64,000 nucleotides of DNA, taken from Aquimarina sp. MAR_2010_214 (lineage in GTDB: Bacteria > Bacteroidota > Bacteroidia > Flavobacteriales > Flavobacteriaceae). Both the position numbers and the translations under genes were made by a program. The notes below the pieces were generated by a model that made no database searches, was not told where the DNA came from, and saw only the letters and a list, made by a program, of their open reading frames with translations. This document shows, piece by piece, positions 51,197-63,869 of this stretch; within the stretch, counting starts at the first letter, position 1, and each line of letters begins with the position of its first letter. The stretch lies in contig NZ_PJMS01000001.1 of the NCBI RefSeq assembly GCF_002846555.1, positions 1,364,001-1,428,000 on the forward strand. The letters are read 5' to 3'.

Positions 51197-51416
51197 TTAT
51201 TTGTATATAGAGTGGTTTATTCTAGAAGTGATTCTAGCAATAAATAACTCATTTCTTCAAGATGATGTAAATTCTCGAGTAAGGACTATTTGTCTACATT
51301 AGAAACTTAGTTTTCTTGTTGTTAATAACATTTTTAATAACTCATTTTTATTAATTTGAAATGAGAAGTTTCTATGCTTAATTTTATAAATGATAAAAAG
51401 GTCTTTTAATAGTGTA

Positions 51417-51869
51417 ATGATGAATTTTTATGATTTTCATATAGTGCTTCAGGAAGTACCAGGGGAAATAAGTATATGTTTTAGTATTTCAGGGTGTCCT
51501 TTACGATGCAAAGGGTGTCATTCACCTTTTTTATGGAAAAAGGGGAGTGGAGAAAAATTAACTAAAAAAATATACAAGGATATACTCAATCAGTATTCTG
51601 GATTTGCTACCTGTGTTGTTTTTATGGGTGGAGAATGGCACAAAAAAGAATTGATAAACAACTTAAAACACGCTAAAGAGAAAGGATATAAAACCTGTTT
51701 GTATACAGGCTTAGAAAAAGTAGATGATAAAATCTTATCTCAATTAACCTGGATTAAAACCGGAAGATGGGATCAATCTCTTGGAGGACTAAATAGCGAA
51801 ACCACCAATCAAGAATTTATAGAAGTAAAAACCAATAAGCGACTTAATTACTTATTTATTAAAAATTAA
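51417..51869 (+). CDS. nrdG: Anaerobic ribonucleotide reductase activating enzyme NrdG
   Basis: A radical SAM protein of 150 aa from ATG 51417 (an upstream ATG at 51390 would add nine residues not typical of the family). The [4Fe-4S] motif CPLRCKGCH (Cys27, Cys31, Cys34) follows the standard lead-in GEISICFSISG; MGGEW is the GGE motif that holds SAM. It makes the glycyl radical on NrdD under anaerobic conditions. It ends 6 bp before nrdD, the reverse of the common nrdD-nrdG order. Confidence 0.9.
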   Translation: MMNFYDFHIVLQEVPGEISICFSISGCPLRCKGCHSPFLWKKGSGEKLTKKIYKDILNQYSGFATCVVFMGGEWHKKELINNLKHAKEKGYKTCLYTGLEKVDDKILSQLTWIKTGRWDQSLGGLNSETTNQEFIEVKTNKRLNYLFIKN

Positions 51870-51875
51870 AAACTC

Positions 51876-53756
51876 ATGATACGACTTTCAGATGATCAAA
51901 TAGCAAATAAAATAGACTTTATAACTCATTATTTAGATTCTACCAATGCAGCAGACGGTTCTAAAGTAGATGCTAACGCCAATGTAACTTCAAAAAACAT
52001 TGCAACAATGGAAGCAGAATTAAATAAAGATATTAATATACAGGTAAATAGGGCATTGGTAAAACAAAAAATAGCTGCTCTGTATGGCGATGATCTGGCA
52101 GAAGAATATATAAGGCAGATAGAGTCACATGAAATATATGTACATGATGAGACTTCACTAAAACCATATTGCGTTTCTATAAGTATGTATCCGTTCTTAT
52201 TAGATGGACTTACAAAACTAGGAGGCGAAAGCAAAGCGCCAAAACATCTTGAGAGTTATTGTGGTGAGTTTGTTAACCTTGTCTTTGCAGTAAGTTCACA
52301 GTTTGCAGGAGCATTGGCGACCGTAGAGTTTTTGATGTATTTTGATCATTTTGCTGCTAAAGATCTTGGAGAAGATTATTTACAGACTCATGAAAAACGC
52401 ATTGCAAATCATTTACAACATGTAGTTTATGCGGTTAATCAACCCGCCGCCGCAAGAGGGTATCAATCCGTATTTTGGAACATCTCACTATACGACGAAG
52501 CCTATTTTAATAGTATGTTTGGAGATTTTGTATTTCCCGATATGACCAAACCAAAATGGGAAAGTGTAAAAAAACTACAAGACTTCTTTATGAAATGGTT
52601 CAATAAAGAACGAAAAAGAGCCGTGCTTACTTTTCCTGTAGTTACTGCGGCAATGTTAGTGAAAAATGGAACTCCTGTCGATAGAGAATTTACCGAAATG
52701 TGCGCACAAGAACTTAGCGATGGAAATTCTTTTTTTATATACCAATCCGAAAACGCAGATAGTTTAGCATCTTGTTGTCGTTTACGAAATGAAATTAGTG
52801 ATAACACCTTTAGCTATTCTTTGGGTGCTGGCGGAGTAGCAACAGGGTCGATTAATGTAATCACTCTTAATATGAACCGGTTGATTCAAAAAAAGGCTGA
52901 TATGGTTGAAGAAGTGCAAAAAGTTCATAAATATCAGGTTGCCTATAGAACACTTATAGACGAATATAATGAAGCGGGATTATTGCCTGTTTATCAAGCG
53001 GGTTTTATCGCATTGGACAAACAATTTTTAACAGTGGGTATTAACGGTATGGTAGAAGCTGCCGAAAGTCAGGGGATTGAAGCAAGCAATAACACAGCAT
53101 ATAAGAACTTTGTAAATAGATACCTAAAAGCAATTTACCAGGAAAACAGGGCAGCAAAAGAAAAATACGGATATATGTTTAACACAGAATTCGTTCCTGC
53201 TGAAAATCTAGGGATAAAAAATGCAAAATGGGATAAAGAAGATGGACTATTTGTACCTAGAGATTGCTATAATTCATATTTCTATGCGGTCGAAGACAAT
53301 AAAGTAAATGCTCTGGATAAAATAATGTTACACGGTAAAGAGATTATACAATATCTGGACGGAGGTTCTGCACTACACCTTAATCTCGAAGAAGCACCGA
53401 ACAAAGACGGGTTTATAAAACTAATTCATGCAACGGCCGCTGCAGGATGTAACTATTTCTGTTTTAATATAAAAATTACAATATGCAATGAATGTTCACA
53501 TATAGATAAGCGCACTATGTCTATGTGTGGTGATTGCGGTTCTAAGAATGTAGATCATGCTACCCGAGTAATAGGATATTTAAAACGAGTATCTAATTTT
53601 AGCTCTGGCCGACAGGGTGAACATCAATTAAGACATTACCATACGCAGCCTGAAAAACCTAATTTGGCAAATAAAAGAATTGAAATTTTGACAGAAAATC
53701 AACCCGAATACCAGATTGATGATCATGCCCAAAACTTAGAAGTTATTAAAACATGA
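51876..53756 (+). CDS. nrdD: Anaerobic ribonucleoside-triphosphate reductase NrdD
   Basis: A 626-aa class III reductase. It lacks an N-terminal ATP-cone, making it shorter than the E. coli enzyme. The catalytic core includes LASCCRLRNE (about 288-297); the C-terminal zinc site has CNECSHI and CGDCGS; the glycyl radical site is in RVIGYLKRVSNF near residue 585. It reduces ribonucleotides without oxygen using the radical made by NrdG. Together they let the bacterium make DNA anaerobically. The stop codon lies inside an FNR-like site that serves the next gene. Confidence 0.92.
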   Translation: MIRLSDDQIANKIDFITHYLDSTNAADGSKVDANANVTSKNIATMEAELNKDINIQVNRALVKQKIAALYGDDLAEEYIRQIESHEIYVHDETSLKPYCVSISMYPFLLDGLTKLGGESKAPKHLESYCGEFVNLVFAVSSQFAGALATVEFLMYFDHFAAKDLGEDYLQTHEKRIANHLQHVVYAVNQPAAARGYQSVFWNISLYDEAYFNSMFGDFVFPDMTKPKWESVKKLQDFFMKWFNKERKRAVLTFPVVTAAMLVKNGTPVDREFTEMCAQELSDGNSFFIYQSENADSLASCCRLRNEISDNTFSYSLGAGGVATGSINVITLNMNRLIQKKADMVEEVQKVHKYQVAYRTLIDEYNEAGLLPVYQAGFIALDKQFLTVGINGMVEAAESQGIEASNNTAYKNFVNRYLKAIYQENRAAKEKYGYMFNTEFVPAENLGIKNAKWDKEDGLFVPRDCYNSYFYAVEDNKVNALDKIMLHGKEIIQYLDGGSALHLNLEEAPNKDGFIKLIHATAAAGCNYFCFNIKITICNECSHIDKRTMSMCGDCGSKNVDHATRVIGYLKRVSNFSSGRQGEHQLRHYHTQPEKPNLANKRIEILTENQPEYQIDDHAQNLEVIKT

Positions 53757-53796
53757 TAATTGTCATATTTAGTTCTGTTTCCATTCGTGATTTTTG
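53753..53796 (+). promoter_or_regulatory. FNR/HcpR-like site and -7 box before the 598-aa gene
   Basis: ATGAT-AATT-GTCAT (53753-53766) is a perfect-pattern dyad of the TGAy-N4-rTCA type used by FNR-family regulators. A -7-like box GATTTTTG (one mismatch to TAnnTTTG) follows at 53789-53796, 29.5 bp from the dyad centre, so the dyad sits near -41.5, the class II activator position. Transcription would start near 53801. The pattern repeats at 56224 and 59811. Confidence 0.5.
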
Positions 53797-53900
53797 ACAG
53801 CTGCATATGTGTTAATGTATGTTGAGAAAATTAGGATGATTATGGTATTATATCATAGTGAACTAATACATAACTAAACCAGTACAAAACTTAATTCATT

Positions 53901-55697
53901 ATGATGAAATTACATTCATTTCATATTCCTGTAATGGGAATAGGTTTTACTATTGATACTCCATTAAAAGTTTCTCATCTAGGAATAGATTCTGTTATTT
54001 CATTAGTCGATGATATTCTATTAGAAAAACTAAGAAAGATGTATTGTGATACATTCGAAATGCCATATAATGAAATCACAGAAAGCATAGAAGATTTTAG
54101 GGCAAAGAGGATTACTTCTTACCTTAATTTGATGAATGATCTGGCAGAAGAAAAGTTTAATCAACTTAAAAGTATTACAACAGAATGTAGTAATGAATTG
54201 AAGCAATATTTCAATATTTTACCCGACACATCCTCATTAAAACAACGATTTAAAAATCTTACATCCAATGATTTTAATTTTAATGGGATCAAAGATTTAA
54301 TAGAATCAAATTTATCAATGGGTAGTATTGATGTTAATATTATGACCAAAGTTGATAAAGAAAATTATCAAAAAAAAGAAAAACTACCTTCTAAGTATAA
54401 TGATGCACATGCAGCACTTAGAGGATATGCTAATAGTGATTTATCATCATCAGTAATACTTTCTGCTGGGATGAACCCCAGACTGTATAGCTATATGGAA
54501 GAGTTTGAAGATTTTTATCCAAACGAGAACGGAGAAATAAAAAAGAAAATAGTTTTAAAAGTAAGTGATTATAGATCTGCGTTAATACAAGGAAAGTTTT
54601 TGGCCAAAAAAGGGTTATGGGTTTCAGAATATAGAATCGAATCCGGACTTAATTGCGGTGGACATGCATTTGCAACAGATGGGTACCTTATGGGGCCAAT
54701 ACTAGCTCAGTTTAGAGATCAGAAAGAAGAATTGATTTCTGAAACACATAAAATCATAACAGAAGTATTATCTCGTAAAAATCGATATACTCCTCAATCT
54801 CCTTTACCGATTAAAATCACTGCCCAAGGTGGGGTAGGTACAGCAGAAGAACACCAGTTTTTACTAGACCATTACAAAGTAGATTCTGTAGGGTGGGGAA
54901 CTCCGTTTCTTTTAGTGCCAGAAGCAACAACAGTAGATAATGCTACATTAGATAAATTAGTAAAGGCCAAAGAAGATGATTTATATTTAAGTGATATCTC
55001 ACCATTGGGGATACCATTTAATAGCCTTAAAGGAAACACAAAAGATCAGGAAAAGTTAACTTTAATAGAAAAGGACAGGCCTGGTAGCTCATGCCCTAAA
55101 AAATTTGTTGCACTAAACAAAGAATTTACAGAAAAAGGGATATGTACAGCATCACGACAATATCAACATGTAAAGATTAAGGAGTTAGATAAAAAGGGGC
55201 TTTCTAAAGAAGACTACCAAAGAGAATTTAACCAAATTGTAGAAAAATCATGTACTTGTGTTGGTCTTGGGACTTCTGCACTATTAAAGTACAACCTAGA
55301 TACTAAAGTTGAAGGAGAAGGAGTTTCTATATGCCCTGGGCCAAATATGGCTTATTTCTCTAAACTTATGAGTTTAAAAGAAATTACAAGTCATATTTAT
55401 GGAGAGTCTGACGAGGTTGTACGAGCAGATCGTCCTAATATGTTTATAAATGAGCTTACTATCTATATTGATTTTTTAAAAAATAAGCTTGAAGAAACAA
55501 AGCATTCTATAAATGATAAACAAAAACGATATTTATCGACGTTTGTCAAAAATCTAAAAGAAGGAGTTTCTTATTATGAAAATATCTTTAGTGATATAAA
55601 AATCGCTTTCGAAAATTCTAAATCACAAATATTAAATGACTTAGATAAAGGAAGAACGACTTTAAACAAAATAAACTCAGAAATTGATGATTTGTAA
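53901..55697 (+). CDS. Uncharacterised Cys-rich TIM-barrel-like protein
   Basis: A 598-aa cytoplasmic protein with no membrane segment. The middle resembles FMN-binding TIM barrels of the nitronate monooxygenase/glutamate synthase type: KITAQGGVGTAEEHQFLLDH, then VDSVGWGTPFLLVPEAT (about 307-345). The start also has the short GIGFTIDTPL phrase. A block of cysteines follows: GLNCGG (about 254), PGSSCPKK (about 398), KGICTAS (about 414), KSCTCVG (about 452) and SICPGP (about 477), enough for an iron-sulphur cluster. The C-terminal 100 residues form helices with coiled-coil character. I know no characterised homologue. It lies between nrdD and an Rrf2 gene and has its own FNR-like promoter, so a redox role in anaerobiosis or NO stress is inferred. 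Confidence 0.75.
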   Translation: MMKLHSFHIPVMGIGFTIDTPLKVSHLGIDSVISLVDDILLEKLRKMYCDTFEMPYNEITESIEDFRAKRITSYLNLMNDLAEEKFNQLKSITTECSNELKQYFNILPDTSSLKQRFKNLTSNDFNFNGIKDLIESNLSMGSIDVNIMTKVDKENYQKKEKLPSKYNDAHAALRGYANSDLSSSVILSAGMNPRLYSYMEEFEDFYPNENGEIKKKIVLKVSDYRSALIQGKFLAKKGLWVSEYRIESGLNCGGHAFATDGYLMGPILAQFRDQKEELISETHKIITEVLSRKNRYTPQSPLPIKITAQGGVGTAEEHQFLLDHYKVDSVGWGTPFLLVPEATTVDNATLDKLVKAKEDDLYLSDISPLGIPFNSLKGNTKDQEKLTLIEKDRPGSSCPKKFVALNKEFTEKGICTASRQYQHVKIKELDKKGLSKEDYQREFNQIVEKSCTCVGLGTSALLKYNLDTKVEGEGVSICPGPNMAYFSKLMSLKEITSHIYGESDEVVRADRPNMFINELTIYIDFLKNKLEETKHSINDKQKRYLSTFVKNLKEGVSYYENIFSDIKIAFENSKSQILNDLDKGRTTLNKINSEIDDL

Positions 55698-55720
55698 ATA
55701 GCACTCTGGTAGAAAAACTA

Positions 55721-56170
55721 TTATTTCAAATCAAACCCCTTTAAAGAAATTACAGTTCCTTCTATTTCAATTTCTTCAACAAGTTTTGAAATCGTTTTAT
55801 CTCTAAATTCATTCAATATTTTTTTCTTGAAAGGAGATACAGTAAAATGTACAGGACAGGGGTTTTTATCACTACATTTTGATAACCCAAGAAAACATTT
55901 GTCAAATTTATGAGTGCCGTCAATACAACAGATGACATCCCAAATCGATTTCTCTTTATTGTTTTTATCCAGAAAAAAACCTCCCCCGGGACCTTTAGTC
56001 GAGGAAACCAGCTTATTTGAGGTCAATTGCCTTAATAATTTGGCTAAAAAAGGTTGAGGAGTTTCTAAGTCTTCAGCAATTTTTTTTACACCTATTTTGT
56101 TAGTCTCATCAGAGTGTATTGCCAGATAAAGTATAGCCCTTATAGCATATTTACAAGCATTAGATAGCAT
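55721..56170 (-). CDS. Rrf2-family Fe-S transcriptional regulator
   Basis: A 149-aa regulator starting MLSNACKYAIRAILYLAIHS, the standard Rrf2 opening, with a winged HTH at about 25-65 (VKKIAEDLETPQPFLAKLLR then GPGGGFFL wing). Three cysteines lie in a C-x6-C-x5-C pattern (CFLGLSKCSDKNPC), close to the C-x5-C-x7-C cluster motif of NsrR and C-x5-C-x5-C of IscR, so it probably senses NO or Fe-S status through a cluster. It is divergent from the copper genes and convergent with the 598-aa gene (24 bp gap). Cluster type cannot be told from sequence. Confidence 0.88.
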   Translation of the reverse strand: MLSNACKYAIRAILYLAIHSDETNKIGVKKIAEDLETPQPFLAKLLRQLTSNKLVSSTKGPGGGFFLDKNNKEKSIWDVICCIDGTHKFDKCFLGLSKCSDKNPCPVHFTVSPFKKKILNEFRDKTISKLVEEIEIEGTVISLKGFDLK

Positions 56171-56189
56171 AATAGCACTTTTTTTTAAT

Positions 56190-56268
56190 CAAATATAATA
56201 AAAAAGATCGTTTTGTCTTTTTTGTGACTTTTATCATGTTTTTTTTATGGTAATTGAGACTATATTTG
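56190..56268. promoter_or_regulatory. Divergent promoter with central FNR-like site
   Basis: Two perfect -7 boxes face away from each other: TATATTTG on the minus strand (56190-56197) for the Rrf2 gene and TATATTTG on the plus strand (56261-56268) for the 125-aa gene. Between them lies GTGAC-TTTT-ATCAT (56224-56237), an FNR-like dyad centred 30.5 bp before the plus box and 33.5 bp before the minus box. It fits activation of both directions by one FNR/HcpR-type protein. The plus -7 box ends 4 bp before the ATG, suggesting a leaderless or near-leaderless mRNA. Confidence 0.55.
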
Positions 56269-56272
56269 CCGT

Positions 56273-56650
56273 ATGAAAAGTACGGTAATATTGTTTGTTG
56301 CTTTCCTTATGCTTATAAAGCCTCTTTGGCCTATAGGAGAGTATATTATGAACTATGATTACATCGTAAAAAATCTGTGTGAAAATAAAGACAGGCCTCG
56401 ATTAAAATGTAATGGTAAATGTTATCTGGTAAAACAATTAGCCAAACAATCAGAAGAAACAAATACCAATCCGTTCAAAAAAGAGCAATCCAAAAATAAA
56501 ACTCAAGAAATCGTCTTTTTTCAACTGTTATTTCAGTTTGATTTAAAAAAAGAACCTGAAAACACATTAGAGAACAATTATAAAACTACTTCAGAAATTA
56601 TTTCTAAGTTACTTATTACAGATCTTTCTCCACCTCCAAAGTTTGGATAG
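56273..56650 (+). CDS. Small membrane-anchored Cys protein upstream of the copper receptor
   Basis: A 125-aa protein with an N-terminal signal or anchor helix (about 4-20), then a conserved-looking segment with Cys36, Cys46 and Cys50 (LCENKDRPRLKCNGKCYLVK), a Lys/Gln/Glu-rich middle, and a C-terminal SPPPKFG. Proteins of this type occur in Bacteroidota before TonB receptors; I know no function. The three cysteines could bind a metal such as copper. It is the first gene of the operon with the copper receptor (98-bp gap). An internal Met13 is an alternative start but would cut the signal helix. Confidence 0.65.
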   Translation: MKSTVILFVAFLMLIKPLWPIGEYIMNYDYIVKNLCENKDRPRLKCNGKCYLVKQLAKQSEETNTNPFKKEQSKNKTQEIVFFQLLFQFDLKKEPENTLENNYKTTSEIISKLLITDLSPPPKFG

Positions 56651-56748
56651 TTCAATATAAGTGTATTTGTTTTTGAAGGTATACCATACCTATAAAAACC
56701 GCTACACAAACTTATTTATATGTTGAATTATTTATAAAATATACTTTA

Positions 56749-58815
56749 ATGAAAACCAGTATTAGGGTGACCTCTTTGTATAAGATATTGAGGGCACCGT
56801 TTAAAAGGGTAAATACCCTATGGTATATCCTGCTTTTTCAAATTATCCCCTGTTGGATTAGTGCTCAGGAAGAAATCCCTAATAAAGAGGCAGATAGTAT
56901 TATGTCTGTCAATTTAGAAGAAGTGATTTTGATATCTGCAAGGAAAGAATTGGATTATCAAAAACAACCTAAACCATTATCCTCGTTGGATGAATACCTA
57001 GAGCTTTCGCAAAAAGTGGGTATGATAAAACGAGGAGCCTATGCCTGGGAACCTGCACTAAATAATATGACATCAGAAAGGCTCTCGGTTACTATAGATG
57101 GGATGCGAATCTTTGGTGCATGTACTGATAAAATGGATCCTATAACCTCGTATGTAGATGTGTCTAATCTAGCCAAAGCACATGTTGCATCTGGACAACA
57201 AGGATCAGAATACGGAAACTGTATAGGAGGCGCAATAGATCTGGAGTTGGATAAAAGTAATTTTAGAGAAACAGGATTTAAAGCAAGTTTAGAAGACGGA
57301 TTTGAAACCAATAACCAATTAGTGGTTTTAGGAGCAGAAGCGAATTATTCAAATTCTGATTTTTATGTAGATGGAGATATCATTTATCGCAAAGCGGAAA
57401 ATTATACTGCAGGAAACGGCGAGGAAATTAATTTTTCTCAATACACAAAGTATAACATTTCTGTAAACGGAGGGTATAAGATTGATGAGGATAGAGCACT
57501 CACAGCAACTGCAATTTATGATGAGGCACGAGATGTAGGGTATCCTGCCTTACCCATGGATGTTTCTTTGGCACGTGCAATTATTGCATCTGTTGGTTTT
57601 GAACAAAGTACTATTGGTGTGTTTAGCGATTGGAAGTCTAAAGTGTACTTTAATAAAGTTACTCATGTGATGGATGATTCTAAAAGACCAGATGTACCTA
57701 TTCGAATGGATATGCCGGGATGGAGTGATACATATGGGTTTTTCTCTGAAGTGAATCTAAAAACCAAAAAACAACACTTTTTGATGAAATGGGATGGGTT
57801 TTATAATAAGTCTCTTGCAGAAATGACAATGTACCCAAATAACCCCAATGAGAACCCCATGTTTATGCTTACTTGGCCCGATGTACGAACTTGGAATACA
57901 GGTTTATATGCAGAAGATAAGATGAGCTTTAAAAAAAGTTCTTTAAAACTATCTGCAAGATTAGCAGTGCAAAATAATAATGTAGCTGATGAATTTGGAC
58001 TTAATAGTCTCAGAATCTTTTATCCAGATATGGAAGAATCTAAAACAAGGTTTCTTAAAAGTGCTTCGCTTCAATATCATAAACATTTAGAACCCATTCA
58101 CATCAATGCAGGACTATCCTATGGAGAACGTGCACCATCGGTATCAGAAGGGTATGGATTTTATCTTTTTAATAGTTTTGATAATCACGATTATATTGGT
58201 GATCCAAACCTAAAAAATGAACAATCTATAGAGGCTAATGCTAAAATTTCTTTAGAAAAATCGAAACTAAAAATTGCTCTGGAAGGAAATGTTTTTCGAA
58301 TGCCAAATTACATTATTGGAGAGGTAAATGAATCGCTAAGTACTATGACAATTGGGGCAGATGGAGTAAAAATATACGAAAATCTAGAGTATGCTGATTT
58401 GATTAATGTGTCTTTGAGTACAGAATACAAAATCCTACCAGAACTTGCATGGTCTGCTTCAGTATCCTACCATCAGGGAAAAGATGATACCGATCGTAAT
58501 TTGCCTTTTATAAGTCCTGTATCATATCGGTCTGGTATTAAATATAATAAGAACAGTTTTTCAGGAGAAGTTACCATGAAAGGTGCTGGAGATCAAACAA
58601 ATTTTAATCCAGAATTTGGTGAAGATAAAACATCAGCTTATACCATTTTTTCGCTAACTCTGGGAAAAACCTTTTATATAGCTAACGATGTGGTATACGC
58701 CAAGGCAGGTGTAGAAAACATTTTTGATGAATACTATTCAACGTATGCAGATTGGAAAAATGTTCCTAGAATGGGACGCAATTTCTTCATTACACTTTCA
58801 TATAAAATCAATTAA
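56749..58815 (+). CDS. OprC/NosA-like TonB-dependent copper receptor
   Basis: A 688-aa outer-membrane receptor with a signal peptide (ending WISAQ, residue 40), plug (about 60-170) and barrel ending ITLSYKIN. It has no carboxypeptidase-like domain, unlike the iron receptors in this window. The plug contains TIDGMRIFGACTDKMDP with Cys125-x3-Met129, and the barrel has THVMDD with His306-x-Met308: the CxxxM and HxM ligands that bind copper in Pseudomonas OprC. NosA, the same family, supplies copper for nitrous-oxide reductase. Copper import is therefore likely, and the anaerobic/NO neighbours fit a need for copper in denitrification. Confidence 0.82.
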   Translation: MKTSIRVTSLYKILRAPFKRVNTLWYILLFQIIPCWISAQEEIPNKEADSIMSVNLEEVILISARKELDYQKQPKPLSSLDEYLELSQKVGMIKRGAYAWEPALNNMTSERLSVTIDGMRIFGACTDKMDPITSYVDVSNLAKAHVASGQQGSEYGNCIGGAIDLELDKSNFRETGFKASLEDGFETNNQLVVLGAEANYSNSDFYVDGDIIYRKAENYTAGNGEEINFSQYTKYNISVNGGYKIDEDRALTATAIYDEARDVGYPALPMDVSLARAIIASVGFEQSTIGVFSDWKSKVYFNKVTHVMDDSKRPDVPIRMDMPGWSDTYGFFSEVNLKTKKQHFLMKWDGFYNKSLAEMTMYPNNPNENPMFMLTWPDVRTWNTGLYAEDKMSFKKSSLKLSARLAVQNNNVADEFGLNSLRIFYPDMEESKTRFLKSASLQYHKHLEPIHINAGLSYGERAPSVSEGYGFYLFNSFDNHDYIGDPNLKNEQSIEANAKISLEKSKLKIALEGNVFRMPNYIIGEVNESLSTMTIGADGVKIYENLEYADLINVSLSTEYKILPELAWSASVSYHQGKDDTDRNLPFISPVSYRSGIKYNKNSFSGEVTMKGAGDQTNFNPEFGEDKTSAYTIFSLTLGKTFYIANDVVYAKAGVENIFDEYYSTYADWKNVPRMGRNFFITLSYKIN

Positions 58816-58839
58816 AAAAACATAATTAAAAATAAACAA

Positions 58840-59688
58840 ATGAAAACCATAAAATTAATTTTTACAGCAATCATTCTTTCAACCATTTTTGTCTCATGTA
58901 GTTCTGATGATGATGAAATGATATTAAATCCTATGGATGGATTTAATATAGTAACCTCTTTTGATGCGAACAATCATTCTATCGAACTATATTCTAAGAA
59001 AAACGATTTTAGCATAGGATATAATGAGGTACACTTACGTATTAAAGATATGGCAACAAAAAGTTATATTTCTCAATCCGAAATTTCTTGGATGCCTGTT
59101 ATGCATATGACACAAATGAAACATTCTTGCCCAAAATCTACTCTGACTGTTACCGAAGATAAGACGGTTTCTAAAGGATTCTTGGTTTTTCAAATGCCAG
59201 GTAATACAGATGAATATTGGGATCTTATTATTACCTATACAATTAATGGAGAAGAATTTACGGCCAAAAACACTATAGATGTAATATCACCTAAAGATGG
59301 TAAACAAAAAGTAAGCACATTCAAGGGTAGTGATGGTACTCGCTATATTTTGACTATGACCGGACCAGTAGAGCCAAAAGTTGCAGTAAATGATTTTAAT
59401 GCAATGCTTTTTAAAATGGAAAATATGATGACTTTTCCTGTAGTAGAAAACTATAAAATTACAGTAGATCCTCGCATGCCTGGCATGGGTAATCATAGTT
59501 CGCCAAACAATGAAGATTTGAGCTATGATGCAGCATCAAAAATGTACAAAGGAAAATTGTCTCTTACCATGACAGGATATTGGAAGATTAACCTAAAATT
59601 ATTAAACGAATCTCAAGAAGTACTAAAAGGAGAAGACGTTACCACAGATAACGTGGAAAGTAGTTTGTTTTTTGAAATTGAGTTTTAA
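58840..59688 (+). CDS. Met/His-rich copper-binding-type lipoprotein
   Basis: A 282-aa lipoprotein (lipobox ending VSC at Cys20, then SSDDDE). It has two related beta domains (about 35-150 and 155-282), each with a metal-site candidate: WMPVMHMTQMKHSCP (Met85, Met88, His89, Met90, Met93, His95, Cys97) and RMPGMGNHSSPN (Met213, Met216, His219). MPxMxH motifs are typical of FixH/YtkA-like and CopC-like folds that bind copper. It follows the copper receptor by 24 bp and is probably its surface or periplasmic copper-passing partner. The receptor pairing is inferred. Confidence 0.72.
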   Translation: MKTIKLIFTAIILSTIFVSCSSDDDEMILNPMDGFNIVTSFDANNHSIELYSKKNDFSIGYNEVHLRIKDMATKSYISQSEISWMPVMHMTQMKHSCPKSTLTVTEDKTVSKGFLVFQMPGNTDEYWDLIITYTINGEEFTAKNTIDVISPKDGKQKVSTFKGSDGTRYILTMTGPVEPKVAVNDFNAMLFKMENMMTFPVVENYKITVDPRMPGMGNHSSPNNEDLSYDAASKMYKGKLSLTMTGYWKINLKLLNESQEVLKGEDVTTDNVESSLFFEIEF

Positions 59689-59708
59689 AATTCCTCTTTT
59701 CTTTTTTG

Positions 59709-59738
59709 AAAGGCCACTCGAAAGAGAGGCCTTTTTTT
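59709..59738 (+). terminator. Rho-independent terminator of the copper operon
   Basis: AAAGGCC-A-CTC (59709-59719) pairs with GAG-A-GGCCTTT (59724-59734) around a GAAA tetraloop, with one A-A mismatch, followed by T residues. It lies 20 bp after the lipoprotein stop and separates the copper operon from nadA. Confidence 0.88.
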
Positions 59739-59810
59739 ATGGGAGTAGAATGAATTTTGAAATGAGTTCTTTTATTAAAAATTATAAAAAAGACTTTTTT
59801 ATCTTTAATT

Positions 59811-59854
59811 ATGATTTTTGTCATAGTATTCACATTCAAAGACCTCTATTTTTC
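59811..59854 (+). promoter_or_regulatory. FNR/HcpR-like site and -7 box before nadA
   Basis: ATGAT-TTTT-GTCAT (59811-59824) is the third TGAy-N4-rTCA dyad of the region. A near-consensus -7 box, TATTTTTC (one mismatch), follows at 59847-59854, 29.5 bp from the dyad centre, the same geometry as at 53753 and 56224. It implies activation of nadA-nadB under anaerobic or NO conditions. Confidence 0.5.
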
Positions 59855-59862
59855 GCGATGTA

Positions 59863-60807
59863 ATGAATACTATGATAAAAGTGGAGCTAAAAGAAAAAAT
59901 AAATAACATAAAGAAAGAGAAAAATGCTGTAATCCTTGCACATTATTATCAACGGCCAGAAATACAGGAGGTTGCTGATTATGTGGGGGATAGTTTAGGA
60001 TTATCTCAAAAAGCAGCAGAAATTGATGCAGATATTATTGTCTTTGCAGGTGTGCACTTTATGGCAGAGACTGCAAAAATTCTTAATCCATCAAAAAAAG
60101 TAGTATTGCCAGATTTAACTGCCGGGTGTTCATTAGCAGATTCGTGTCCCCCTGATGCATTTGGTTCTTTTGTAAGATCACACCCTAATCATGTTGTGAT
60201 TACTTATATCAATTGTTCGGCAGAAATTAAAGCAATGAGTGATTTGGTTTGTACCTCTTCTAATGCGCTTAAAATTGTAGAATCAGTACCAAAGGATACA
60301 CCTATCATTTTTGCTCCGGATAAAAACCTGGGTAAATACATCATAAAACAAACCGGTAGAGACATGATACTTTGGGACGGTAGTTGCATAGTACATGAAG
60401 CATTTTGCATTGATAAATTGCTGGATTTATATCAAGATAATCCAGGGTCGGTGATTATAGCGCATCCTGAATCTGAAGAACATATTTTGAAAACCGCAAA
60501 GTATGTAGGTTCTACTGCCGGGATGATAAATTATGTAAAAGAACATCCAAAAGAGAAATTTATAGTAGCTACTGAAGCAGGTATTTTACATGAAATGAAA
60601 AAAGAAGTACCCAATACAGTATTGATTCCGGCTCCAGCCGAGGAGGATAATACTTGTGCTTGTAGTGAGTGTAGTTATATGAAAGTAAATACACTTCAGA
60701 AATTATATGACTGTCTACTTAATGAAACTCCCGAAATAAATGTAGCAGAAGATATAAGAAAAAAAGCTTTAACTCCTATTGTACGAATGTTAGACCTCTC
60801 TAAATAA
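59863..60807 (+). CDS. nadA: Quinolinate synthase NadA
   Basis: A 314-aa enzyme that condenses iminoaspartate with dihydroxyacetone phosphate to quinolinate for NAD synthesis. The signature [20 protein letters not shown] is at about 24-43, and the [4Fe-4S] cysteines are in [13 protein letters not shown] (about 84-96), DLVCTSSN and [10 protein letters not shown] (about 263-272), with HPE (about 206) and TEAG as further family motifs. The cluster is oxygen-sensitive. It is followed 4 bp later by nadB and has an FNR-like promoter, which suggests the pair serves NAD supply without oxygen. Confidence 0.95.
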
Positions 60808-60811
60808 AAGA

Positions 60812-62401
60812 ATGATGATATCTGTAGATTATTTAGTAATTGGATCAGGTGCTGCCGGATTAACTTTTGCAGTTAAAATAGCAGAAAAATTTAAAAACAA
60901 AAGGGTTTGTATCGTAACAAAAGCCGATGATGACGAATCTAATACAAAATATGCCCAGGGAGGAGTAGCAGTGGTATTAGATGCCGAAGAAGACTCTTTT
61001 CAAAAACATATACAAGATACTTTGATTGCTGGTGATGGTTTGTGCGATTCTGCAGTCGTTAAAATGGTGGTTAAAGAAGGCCCAAAAAGACTTAATGATT
61101 TAATACAATGGGGAGCTAATTTTGATTTAGATTATAACGGAAATTTAGATCTAGGTAAAGAAGGAGGACACTCAGAATATCGTATTGTTCATCATAAAGA
61201 TATTACAGGTCGCGAAATAGAAACTGCATTACTAAATCGTATTCATCAATTGCCTAACGTTAATATATTAAGTCATCATTTTGCAATTGATCTAATTACA
61301 GAACATCAATTGCAAATACAAGATCGTGAACATATTTCTTGTTATGGAGTCTATACTCTGAATCAAAAAACTGGAGAAATAAAAACGATAAAAGCCACCG
61401 TTACATTGTTAGCAACAGGAGGTATTGGTAAAGTATACGGTCATACTACTAATCCTGTTATTGCAACTGGTGATGGAATTGCAATGGCCTATAGGGCAAA
61501 AGCAAGAATTAGAGATATGGAGTTTGTTCAGTTTCATCCAACAGCATTATATGAAGATAACGATGGACAATCTTTCCTGATTTCTGAAGCAGTAAGAGGT
61601 TTTGGAGCCTATCTAAGAAATAAAAACGGTCATAGGTTTATGCTGGATTATGATGAAAGAGGAGAACTTGCTTCACGAGATATTGTTTCAAAAAGTATAG
61701 ATAACGAGCTTAAAAAATCAGGAGATTCTAGTGTCTATTTAGACTGTACTCATCTTCAGATAAATGATTTTAAAAAACACTTCCCTACAATTTATAAAAA
61801 ATGCATGGCCAATCATATCGACATAGAAAAAGATTGGATTCCGGTAGTTCCGGCATCACATTATTTATGTGGTGGTATTGAGGTTAATAAAGATGGTATG
61901 ACATCTATTCAAAATTTATTTGCCTGTGGAGAATGTTCGAGAACAGGTTTACATGGAGCAAACCGGTTAGCTTCAAACTCTTTACTAGAAGCCTTGGTAT
62001 ATGCGCATAATAGTTACCAATACCTTTGTTCTAATGTTGTACAATCGGTTTCATTAGCAATTCCCGATTGGAATGATCAGGGAACTCATGTTAATAAAGA
62101 ACACATCATCATAAAACATAATACCAGACAATTACAAGCCTTGATGAGAGACTATGTTGGTATTGTGCGTAGTAATCACCGTTTGACAAAAGCTAAAGAA
62201 CATTTAGATGTAATGTATAGAGAAGTAGAAGAATTATATAAGGATTCGAAGGTAAATACGTCATTATGCGAATTACGAAACATGATTAATATTGCGCATT
62301 TGATTATCGGACAATCTTTAGAAAGAAAAGAAAATAAAGGAGGATATTTTAATATAGATAATAGTACTTCTCCAGAAATTTTAGAAATACAGAACCCTTA
62401 A
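60812..62401 (+). CDS. nadB: L-aspartate oxidase NadB
   Basis: A 529-aa flavoprotein that oxidises aspartate to iminoaspartate, passed to NadA. The N-terminal FAD motif is DYLVIGSGAAGLTFAV (about 5-20); KYAQGGVAVVLDAEEDS (about 46-62), the GGHSEYRIVHHKDITG region and the C-terminal GANRLASNSLLEALVY motif are all family marks. It can use fumarate instead of oxygen as electron acceptor, which fits the anaerobic setting. It belongs to one operon with nadA and the thioredoxin-like gene (11 bp downstream). Confidence 0.95.
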   Translation: MMISVDYLVIGSGAAGLTFAVKIAEKFKNKRVCIVTKADDDESNTKYAQGGVAVVLDAEEDSFQKHIQDTLIAGDGLCDSAVVKMVVKEGPKRLNDLIQWGANFDLDYNGNLDLGKEGGHSEYRIVHHKDITGREIETALLNRIHQLPNVNILSHHFAIDLITEHQLQIQDREHISCYGVYTLNQKTGEIKTIKATVTLLATGGIGKVYGHTTNPVIATGDGIAMAYRAKARIRDMEFVQFHPTALYEDNDGQSFLISEAVRGFGAYLRNKNGHRFMLDYDERGELASRDIVSKSIDNELKKSGDSSVYLDCTHLQINDFKKHFPTIYKKCMANHIDIEKDWIPVVPASHYLCGGIEVNKDGMTSIQNLFACGECSRTGLHGANRLASNSLLEALVYAHNSYQYLCSNVVQSVSLAIPDWNDQGTHVNKEHIIIKHNTRQLQALMRDYVGIVRSNHRLTKAKEHLDVMYREVEELYKDSKVNTSLCELRNMINIAHLIIGQSLERKENKGGYFNIDNSTSPEILEIQNP

Positions 62402-63113: not shown

Positions 63114-63869
63114 TTAATCTTTAACAAGCGAAGATGTTTTCGATTTTTCTATGATGTTCTTCTCTAATTCCACTGCTTTAGGAAATAAAATGTTGTTTTC
63201 TAAGTGAATATGTAAGTGTAAATTCTTTTCAAATTCTTCTAATAACGAAAAAGTAACACGATAGGTGTTGCAGGCATCCTCTGGTGGAGTATAATTATCT
63301 GTTAATGAAGCAATTTTCCGAAATCGTTCTCCTTCATTGTCATGTTCTTGCATCATCATCCCAATAGGATTTTCGACGGTTCCGAAATGGGGAGGTTGAA
63401 CGGTATTATTTTGCGCTAAGCTTGTTACCATTTTTCTAATAAAAGGGAAGAGTATAATTTCTTCTTTTTTCATGTGTTGCGTAAGTTCTCCTCCGGCTTG
63501 ATGAAAGAGTTCATAGATTTCTAGTAACTCTTGGTGCCGCCCTCCATGTACCTTACATAATTTTCCTAAGTATTGAGTCACTATTGGTATCTTTTCTTCA
63601 ACATAACGATGATGTGTTTTTTCGATATAGTCTGCTAATAAATCAAGTGGCCAGGATTGATAATCAATTGCAGTATCATCTTTTTTGGTTAATACATCAT
63701 TCAGACTCTCTAAAATATGTTCAATTTCGATCCCATTCTTATTACAAACTTCTTCTAATGTTCTATCTCCTCTACAGCAAAAATCAATTCCATGTTTTGA
63801 AAAAACAACAGCGGTTCGGTAATCCTTTGCTACGAATTGTCCTACCTTGGTTTTTATTAATGTTTCCAT
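63114..63869 (-). CDS. ric: Iron-sulphur cluster repair di-iron protein RIC (ScdA/YtfE)
   Basis: A 251-aa protein: the ScdA N-terminal domain (about 1-60) with HGIDFCCRGDRTLEEVC (Cys31, Cys32), then a hemerythrin-like domain (about 80-240) with metal-binding His residues in HHRYVEEKIP, HGGRHQEL, HMKKEE, MQEHDNEG and HIHLENNILFP. RIC proteins repair iron-sulphur clusters damaged by nitric oxide and peroxide. It starts 8 bp after the stop of the norB-like gene, so NO reduction and cluster repair are co-transcribed. Confidence 0.93.
   Translation of the reverse strand: METLIKTKVGQFVAKDYRTAVVFSKHGIDFCCRGDRTLEEVCNKNGIEIEHILESLNDVLTKKDDTAIDYQSWPLDLLADYIEKTHHRYVEEKIPIVTQYLGKLCKVHGGRHQELLEIYELFHQAGGELTQHMKKEEIILFPFIRKMVTSLAQNNTVQPPHFGTVENPIGMMMQEHDNEGERFRKIASLTDNYTPPEDACNTYRVTFSLLEEFEKNLHLHIHLENNILFPKAVELEKNIIEKSKTSSLVKD

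Follow-up and report, generated by a model that had tools for sequence, protein, structure and literature searches.

A dyad at fixed distance from the -7 box marks a candidate low-oxygen regulon in Aquimarina

Known low-oxygen regulators and three promoter sites in Aquimarina

The closest described counterparts of the promoter sites reported here, which lie in a 64,000-base stretch of the genome of Aquimarina sp. MAR_2010_214 (G000:C1:1364001-1428000, the window; its genome, G000, is a single contig of 5.98 Mb), are the rhizobial Fix cascades and the regulators FNR and HcpR. In rhizobia, the FixL-FixJ-FixK cascade, and the hFixL-FxkR-FixK cascade in the parts of its description compared here, combine a FixL-type PAS kinase with a FixK-like CRP-family output and a cbb3 oxidase as target. 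FixJ consists of a receiver with a LuxR-type output. Escherichia coli FNR and the CxxC-containing FNR proteins of Bacteroidota have the CRP fold and act with class II spacing, the FNR site being TTGAT-N4-ATCAA, with an A following the dyad. HcpR proteins (HcpR1 and HcpR2) likewise belong to the CRP/FNR family and are tied to nitrogen oxides; the passages compared give their motifs as TGTGA-N6-TCACA, TTGAC-N4-GTCAA and GTAAC-N4-GTTAC (PMC1274295).

The Aquimarina system is of this general kind and new in its details; no account of the regulon was found in the open-access listings searched. It has in common with the rhizobial cascades a FixL-type PAS kinase, a FixK-like CRP-family output and a cbb3 oxidase target, but its receiver and CRP parts are fused in a single protein (REC-CRP), the separate FixJ step is missing, and it is found in Bacteroidota, with the -7 box TAnnTTTG. 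REC-CRP is not a FixJ protein, as its output is made up of cNMP_binding and HTH_Crp_2 domains. CRP fold and class II spacing are common to it and FNR, whereas the CRP part of REC-CRP lacks a CxxC, and the flanks of the Aquimarina site, (A/C)TGAY-N4-RTCAT, differ from those of FNR and FixK sites. The published HcpR motifs do not match the Aquimarina sites either, a comparison that covers the passages named above, with species variants such as that of Porphyromonas gingivalis lying outside them. By all the sequence tests applied, the sites look like members of a genuine genome-wide low-oxygen regulon, for which they would provide a precise promoter code in this Bacteroidota group: a dyad and a -7 box 23 bases apart.

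The preliminary description of this DNA had named three identically built sites, and this observation was confirmed. All three dyads are present, with the earlier coordinates covering the same dyads plus one flanking base per side, and each of them is centred 29.5 or 30.5 bases ahead of its box (Table 1; N23 and N24 give the number of bases between dyad and box). The window holds nine TGAY-N4-RTCA dyads, six of them in genes, and the three intergenic ones are those described, intergenic DNA making up 5,724 of the 64,000 bases by the gene list of this report. An exact dyad with a box (at most one mismatch, N22-24, both strands) occurs three times; 300 Markov-simulated windows averaged 0.40, and only one of them reached three. 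The dyad without a box is not rare (27 of the 300 simulated windows had as many). Furthermore, a weight matrix built from 19 regulon sites, all outside the window, places sites 1 and 3 first and second among window positions (24.5 and 20.6; next 11.4); the matrix did not score site 2, with its N24 spacing. Seen from the rrf2 side, site 2 has an exact box at N27 and lacks the T that follows the dyad.

The pattern across the genome and its relatives

A search of G000 for the exact pattern with spacers of 21-27 gave 30 matches, compared to two for a reversed-pattern control. Spacer 23 holds 16 of these, the remaining six spacers totalling 14 (mean 2.3; Poisson P 4e-9). When up to one mismatch is permitted at spacer 23, 69 matches are obtained versus 20 in the control. 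The fixed position of the dyad over the -33/-35 region, as expected of a class II activator site, is seen both in these genome matches (16/30 at N23) and upstream of the 598-aa gene behind site 1 (N23 box at 28 of 78 loci, see below).

The genes behind the matches were read in 20 stretches plus the window, 350 kb picked around matches and hence a non-random sample; the names norC, norB, ccoQ, ccoP, ccoG, ccoH and nosL were assigned by reading translations. Sites precede the cbb3-related genes ccoS, a fused ccoN/O and a ccoI-type heavy-metal P-type ATPase, as well as a porin-napA operon, norC/norB-type genes and a cytochrome c gene leading to nosZ. Further genes behind sites are moeB, hsp20, clpB and five uspA-type genes (289757, 304515, 308106, 334094 and 341912; one profile-checked as Usp), with hemN lying downstream of that at 334094 on the same strand. 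Profile scores above cut-off were obtained for napA, the fused cbb3 subunit I/II gene, hemN, nosZ, clpB and the MoeB subfamily model, and the heavy-metal P-type ATPase fell slightly below its own (344 vs 346 bits). Profile matches were also found for FixS/CcoS, Usp, HSP20, a COX1-family gene following the norC-type cytochrome, an alginate-export-type porin preceding napA, cytochrome c, REC-CRP, the kinase, PilJ, PAS and MlaE. The genome scan that the preliminary description had proposed turned out in its favour, with many matches ahead of cbb3, nap, nor, nos, molybdopterin and universal-stress genes.

All 29 of the 598-aa gene's N23 sites have T after RTCA, as do 34 of 38 sites in the fetched G000 stretches; A or C precedes TGA in 28 of 29 and 34 of 38, respectively. 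From these counts, the element is (A/C)TGAY-N4-RTCAT, located 23 (sometimes 24) bases ahead of the Bacteroidota -7 box TAnnTTTG. The label "FNR/HcpR-like" earlier given to the sites is not supported in that form: the T present after the dyad in 29/29 cases contrasts with the A of FNR and of the FNR-like HcpR1, and HcpR2 has GTAAC-N4-GTTAC.

Conservation was assessed in 110 genomes (63 of group g1 and 47 others), 57 being counted as genus genomes. The gene nadA is found in 13 of the 57, the window's included, and all 13 have an upstream dyad whose best box is at N23 (0-2 mismatches; at most one in 12). The rrf2 gene is present in 11 of the 57; in 7/7 genomes examined in which rrf2 and the 125-aa operon diverge, there is a dyad whose box, at N23 or N24, is exact, and in G019, G031 and G050 it is nadA from which rrf2 diverges. 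The 598-aa gene occurs in 33 of the 110 genomes, 20 of which, the window's included, belong to the genus. A dyad lies within 500 bp upstream of it in 19 of these 20, again including the window's genome, and none was found within that distance in G035; the box at N23 has at most one mismatch in 12/20 and at most two in 17/20. A wider set was taken from the best 80 of 581 loci from public genomes, some of them Aquimarina, 78 of which have sufficient upstream sequence. Here the dyad is found upstream of the 598-aa gene at 36 loci versus 1.8 expected from shuffles, and 28 have a box (at most one mismatch) at spacer 23, with no other spacer between 8 and 44 accounting for more than four. The gene often adjoins nadA-nadB, with nadA at 19 of the wider loci by BLAST (a strict nadA motif caught 10 of the 19). 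That the three sites precede the 598-aa gene, the Rrf2/copper-type operon and nadA-nadB, as first reported, thus holds in the window, and all three are conserved in relatives.

Candidate regulators and competing readings

HTH_Crp_2 matches number 11 in G000, one of them LacI-type by sequence. Four CRP proteins carry E and R in the recognition helix: REC-CRP, a DNR-like protein and a tandem pair at 5631-5633 kb. REC-CRP is a receiver-CRP fusion (335015-336076) encoded within a 280-345 kb low-oxygen cluster, with the gene of a PAS kinase just before it (336073-337308). The kinase has PAS, HisKA and HATPase domains (Pfam), and the best PDB match of its PAS domain is FixL (1d06, E 1.3e-13), with the residues that we take, from FixL, to be the haem-ligand His and the distal Arg both aligned. 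In the best 30 REC-CRP matches, all within the genus, the kinase is adjacent at 29 loci, an exact N23 site follows REC-CRP at all 30 and, at 18, the kinase has an exact N24 site ahead of it; in G000 the N23 site precedes a uspA-type gene.

REC-CRP is present in 44 of the 63 g1 genomes and, among those at least 90% complete, the median number of exact N23 sites, uncorrected for shared ancestry, is 9 with REC-CRP (n=40) and 1 without (n=15). Genomes G008, G047 and G050 are the three outliers in the latter group, and in G008 and G047 a CxxC (Cys-type) FNR lies in the cco cluster, amid the same sites. At least five sites are found in 38 of 43 genomes with REC-CRP or FNR, compared to 1 of 12 with neither. 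A search with the relatives' FNR at E 1e-40 finds the Cys-type FNR in 4/63 g1 genomes and 20/47 others. Recognition helices were aligned for 10 REC-CRP and 11 FNR rows (G081, one of the 12 FNR loci, and the LacI-type match L010 were omitted): the helix reads GxATESxIR in 10/10 and 9/11, respectively. None of the 10 REC-CRP rows has a CxxC near the start of the CRP part (last 235 residues), which holds 0-2 cysteines and lacks the cysteine set of a [4Fe-4S] regulator. In the tree, whose branches are long, REC-CRP rows fall beside, not inside, the FNR rows.

REC-CRP beside the FixL-like kinase is, on this evidence, the likeliest activator in G000, and the pair would represent a candidate sensor-regulator system that saves one step relative to the rhizobial cascade. 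Oxygen is probably the signal, and NO may come in via the DNR-like protein. In the proposed mechanism, a CRP/FNR-family dimer would sit in place of the -33 element in a class II layout; the haem-PAS kinase would phosphorylate REC-CRP at low oxygen, REC-CRP would do the job of the Cys-type FNR of related organisms, and the DNR-like protein may add an NO input at the same sites. The shared GxATESxIR helix and the presence of FNR amid the same sites in G008 and G047 suggest that the regulator was swapped while the sites were kept, and the lineage could serve as a test case for such an exchange; the mutual exclusion of the two regulators within the genus is only suggestive. The idea of a single CRP/FNR-type class II activator of an anaerobic set, put forward in the preliminary description, holds for the most part and fits the sequence evidence for NAD synthesis, copper-type genes and the 598-aa protein; the FNR/HcpR label, the calling of that protein unknown and copper import are not supported as worded there. 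Taken together, we consider it likely that the sites are activator sites of a low-oxygen regulon driven by the REC-CRP/kinase pair, with the target logic set out below.

Several observations weigh against this explanation. Two of the 16 exact N23 matches in G000 resemble chance (5392621 is antisense within a long gene and 3077403 is 312 bp from the next start), and no consensus site is found upstream of nrdG-nrdD itself (best matrix score 1.7). In two genomes, G008 and G047, the dyad near the 598-aa gene is oriented to a divergent hemN instead. The dyad is absent from 42 of the 78 wider loci and, outside the genus, from the 500 bp next to the 598-aa gene in all 10 orthologues examined of 13 found. 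Few sites occur despite REC-CRP or FNR in G005 (1), G016 (4), G035 (3), G037 (2) and G051 (4). Within the genus, FNR and REC-CRP do not exclude each other significantly (P 0.08, n=63), and G040 carries both. In addition, P values across genomes overstate independence owing to shared ancestry.

A reading in which the DNR-like protein is the main occupant of the sites, so that the regulon answers NO rather than oxygen and the REC-CRP pair does other work, appears improbable. This protein (4763000-4763599) has Pseudomonas aeruginosa DNR as the best match of 54 PDB sequences (3dkw, E 4e-15), its helix GLRVETVIR likewise has E and R, and many of the targets are denitrification genes. The presence of its gene also correlates with site number, REC-CRP genomes that carry it having more sites (P 1e-4), so the two regulators are not separated on this count; and G050 has nine sites where neither REC-CRP nor FNR, only the DNR-like protein, was found. 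However, the 17 REC-CRP genomes (at least 90% complete) devoid of the DNR-like protein still have 1-11 sites (median 7), G038 has the protein and no site at all, the cbb3 oxidase genes among the targets suit oxygen control, and exact sites lie behind REC-CRP at 30/30 loci and ahead of its kinase at 18/30.

Less probable still is that the dyads serve a CRP/FNR-family repressor or a non-oxygen signal such as carbon or stress, the anaerobic reading deriving from gene names only. The targets include universal-stress genes, hsp20 and clpB, and CRP-family proteins of Flavobacteriales are predicted to sense carbon in the part of the source compared (PMC8510549). The target list nevertheless matches low-oxygen respiration, and the Cys-type FNR of G008 and G047 lies amid the same sites. 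A fixed distance between dyad and box, here 23 bases, is moreover typical of activators. Chance matches in AT-rich DNA are a negligible explanation: the dyad alone is indeed common, as its six copies within genes of the window illustrate, but the genome counts against controls, the simulations, the matrix ranking and the conservation at nadA and the 598-aa gene all oppose it, and it is contradicted by dyad and spacing being conserved across genera. Returning to the low-oxygen activator sites, a bolder version is doubtful: that Aquimarina replaced the iron-sulphur FNR by a one-step switch from FixL kinase to receiver-CRP with the promoters kept, and that the regulon is a kit of oxygen-independent replacements, with NadAB taking over from the kynurenine route, HemN serving haem synthesis and the 598-aa family acting as a flavin/iron-sulphur enzyme making unsaturated fatty acids in place of a desaturase, an independent FabX analogue.

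Other candidate regulators were considered. The Cys-type FNR was not found in G000 by the search at E 1e-40, and the G000 CRP rows have no CxxC. HcpR was rejected on the mismatch between the published motifs and the sites. The tandem CRP pair (G000:C1:5631308-5633150, L075) has matches of at least 55% identity in 15/63 g1 genomes, two of them (G004 and G029) with the pair interrupted, and was for that reason put aside but not rejected. Its two proteins have the helices GTSIESLVR and GTSIESLAR and shared cysteines, and lie near genes read as carbonic anhydrase and SulP transporter.

Predicted roles of the genes behind the sites

Table 1 Features of the window around the three sites (positions within the window)
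Feature	Position	Strand	Remark
nrdG, NrdD-activating protein	51390..51869	+	
nrdD, anaerobic ribonucleotide reductase	51876..53756	+	directly upstream of site 1
Site 1 dyad TGATAATTGTCA	53754..53765	+	first TGA is the nrdD stop codon (53754-53756)
Site 1 -7 box GATTTTTG	53789..53796	+	N23, one mismatch to TAnnTTTG
598-aa protein gene	53901..55697	+	no Pfam/NCBIfam family; modelled flavin-type TIM barrel like FabK/FabX; invariant cysteines
rrf2, Rrf2-family regulator	55721..56170	-	divergent from site 2
Site 2 dyad TGACTTTTATCA	56225..56236	+	T next after dyad; oriented to 125-aa gene
Site 2 -7 box TATATTTG	56261..56268	+	N24, exact TAnnTTTG
125-aa protein, CNGKCYL motif	56273..56650	+	first gene behind site 2; no family match
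TonB-dependent receptor	56749..58815	+	copper-receptor-like, under family cut-off (138 vs 472 bits)
Lipoprotein-like protein	58840..59688	+	weak YtkA-like match, under cut-off
Site 3 dyad TGATTTTTGTCA	59812..59823	+	upstream of nadA
Site 3 -7 box TATTTTTC	59847..59854	+	N23, one mismatch
nadA, quinolinate synthase	59863..60807	+	behind site 3
nadB, L-aspartate oxidase	60812..62401	+	

On the simplest reading of site 3, nadA-nadB appears to provide an oxygen-independent substitute for the kynurenine route, which requires oxygen, and to be induced when oxygen falls. The gene for 3-hydroxyanthranilate dioxygenase (3-HAO), an oxygen-using step of the kynurenine route and the sole step of it searched, is present in 56/57 genus genomes. 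Once that route stops, NadA and NadB would make quinolinate in its place, and the NAD synthesis route is predicted to change with oxygen inside one cell. In the portion of the source compared, aspartate oxidases are able to use fumarate in place of oxygen, and anaerobic fungi have NadA/NadB instead of the kynurenine route (PMC8262920). Both cases bypass oxygen-requiring steps, but the Aquimarina genome holds 3-HAO as well as nadAB, with a low-oxygen site at nadA. A precedent for nad genes tied to denitrification, under another regulator, comes from Bradyrhizobium, where under denitrifying conditions a nasT mutant shows lowered nadA, nadB and nadC (PMC6759348, Table 2); the regulator there is, in the part compared, an antitermination factor and not a CRP/FNR protein.

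The 598-aa protein was described as unknown at first, wording that is in need of correction: it has thousands of homologues, the closest named ones from Aquimarina, and a modelled fold like that of FabK/FabX. Searches of Pfam, NCBIfam and PDB sequences found no family for it; the PDB profile search gave three chance matches only, with no sequence match to FabX, and the NMO family is absent among the 25 listed of 62 Pfam matches. The structural model nevertheless shows an NMO/FabK-type TIM barrel of the FMN-binding kind, and C397, C414, C450, C452 and C477 are invariant across 64 sequences of the family. The protein thus models as a FabK/FabX-like flavin barrel and would be another low-oxygen enzyme. 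FabX of Helicobacter pylori and its Neisseria homologue NGO1024, as far as the passages compared describe them, resemble it in the FMN barrel (by model here), in cysteines of the C-terminal part, which in FabX (C300, C304, C308 and C320) bind [4Fe-4S], and in the low-oxygen setting (PMC8626469, PMC11300592). The differences are: no profile match, 363 vs 598 aa, a different cysteine spacing and a catalytic His that is not aligned. Model and promoter together would give a large protein family, so far annotated only as hypothetical, its first lead to structure and regulation.

For the operon behind site 2, the preliminary description had proposed copper import. In that wording the proposal is not supported, the TonB-copper match in the window being far under its cut-off (Table 1). 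In G011 (L168 5136-9282) the copper-type genes, with an exact N22 site and rrf2 on the same strand, directly follow genes read as nosL, nosD, nosF and nosY, a gene order that supports a role in copper supply. The 125-aa protein, receptor and lipoprotein would accordingly be predicted to supply copper for copper-containing denitrification enzymes.

Some further features of the genome were noted. The end of the window leads into a denitrification cluster, with a ScdA/hemerythrin-type gene (63114-63869) and, outside the window (L063, G000:C1:1427877-1438906), a 749-aa gene whose translation reads as NO reductase, another Rrf2-like gene, a nirK-type gene (multicopper oxidase/cytochrome c) and a cytochrome c gene preceded by an exact N23 site, followed by nosZ. 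In addition to nrdD/nrdG of the window, a ribonucleotide-reductase-like gene (573 aa, read from its translation; L067, G000:C1:3081713-3083434) lies in a cluster of sites at 3065-3086 kb. Finally, two near-alike 128-aa membrane proteins are encoded at distant loci (L064, G000 2545607-2545993; L066, G000 3065779-3066165) behind very similar exact N23 promoters.

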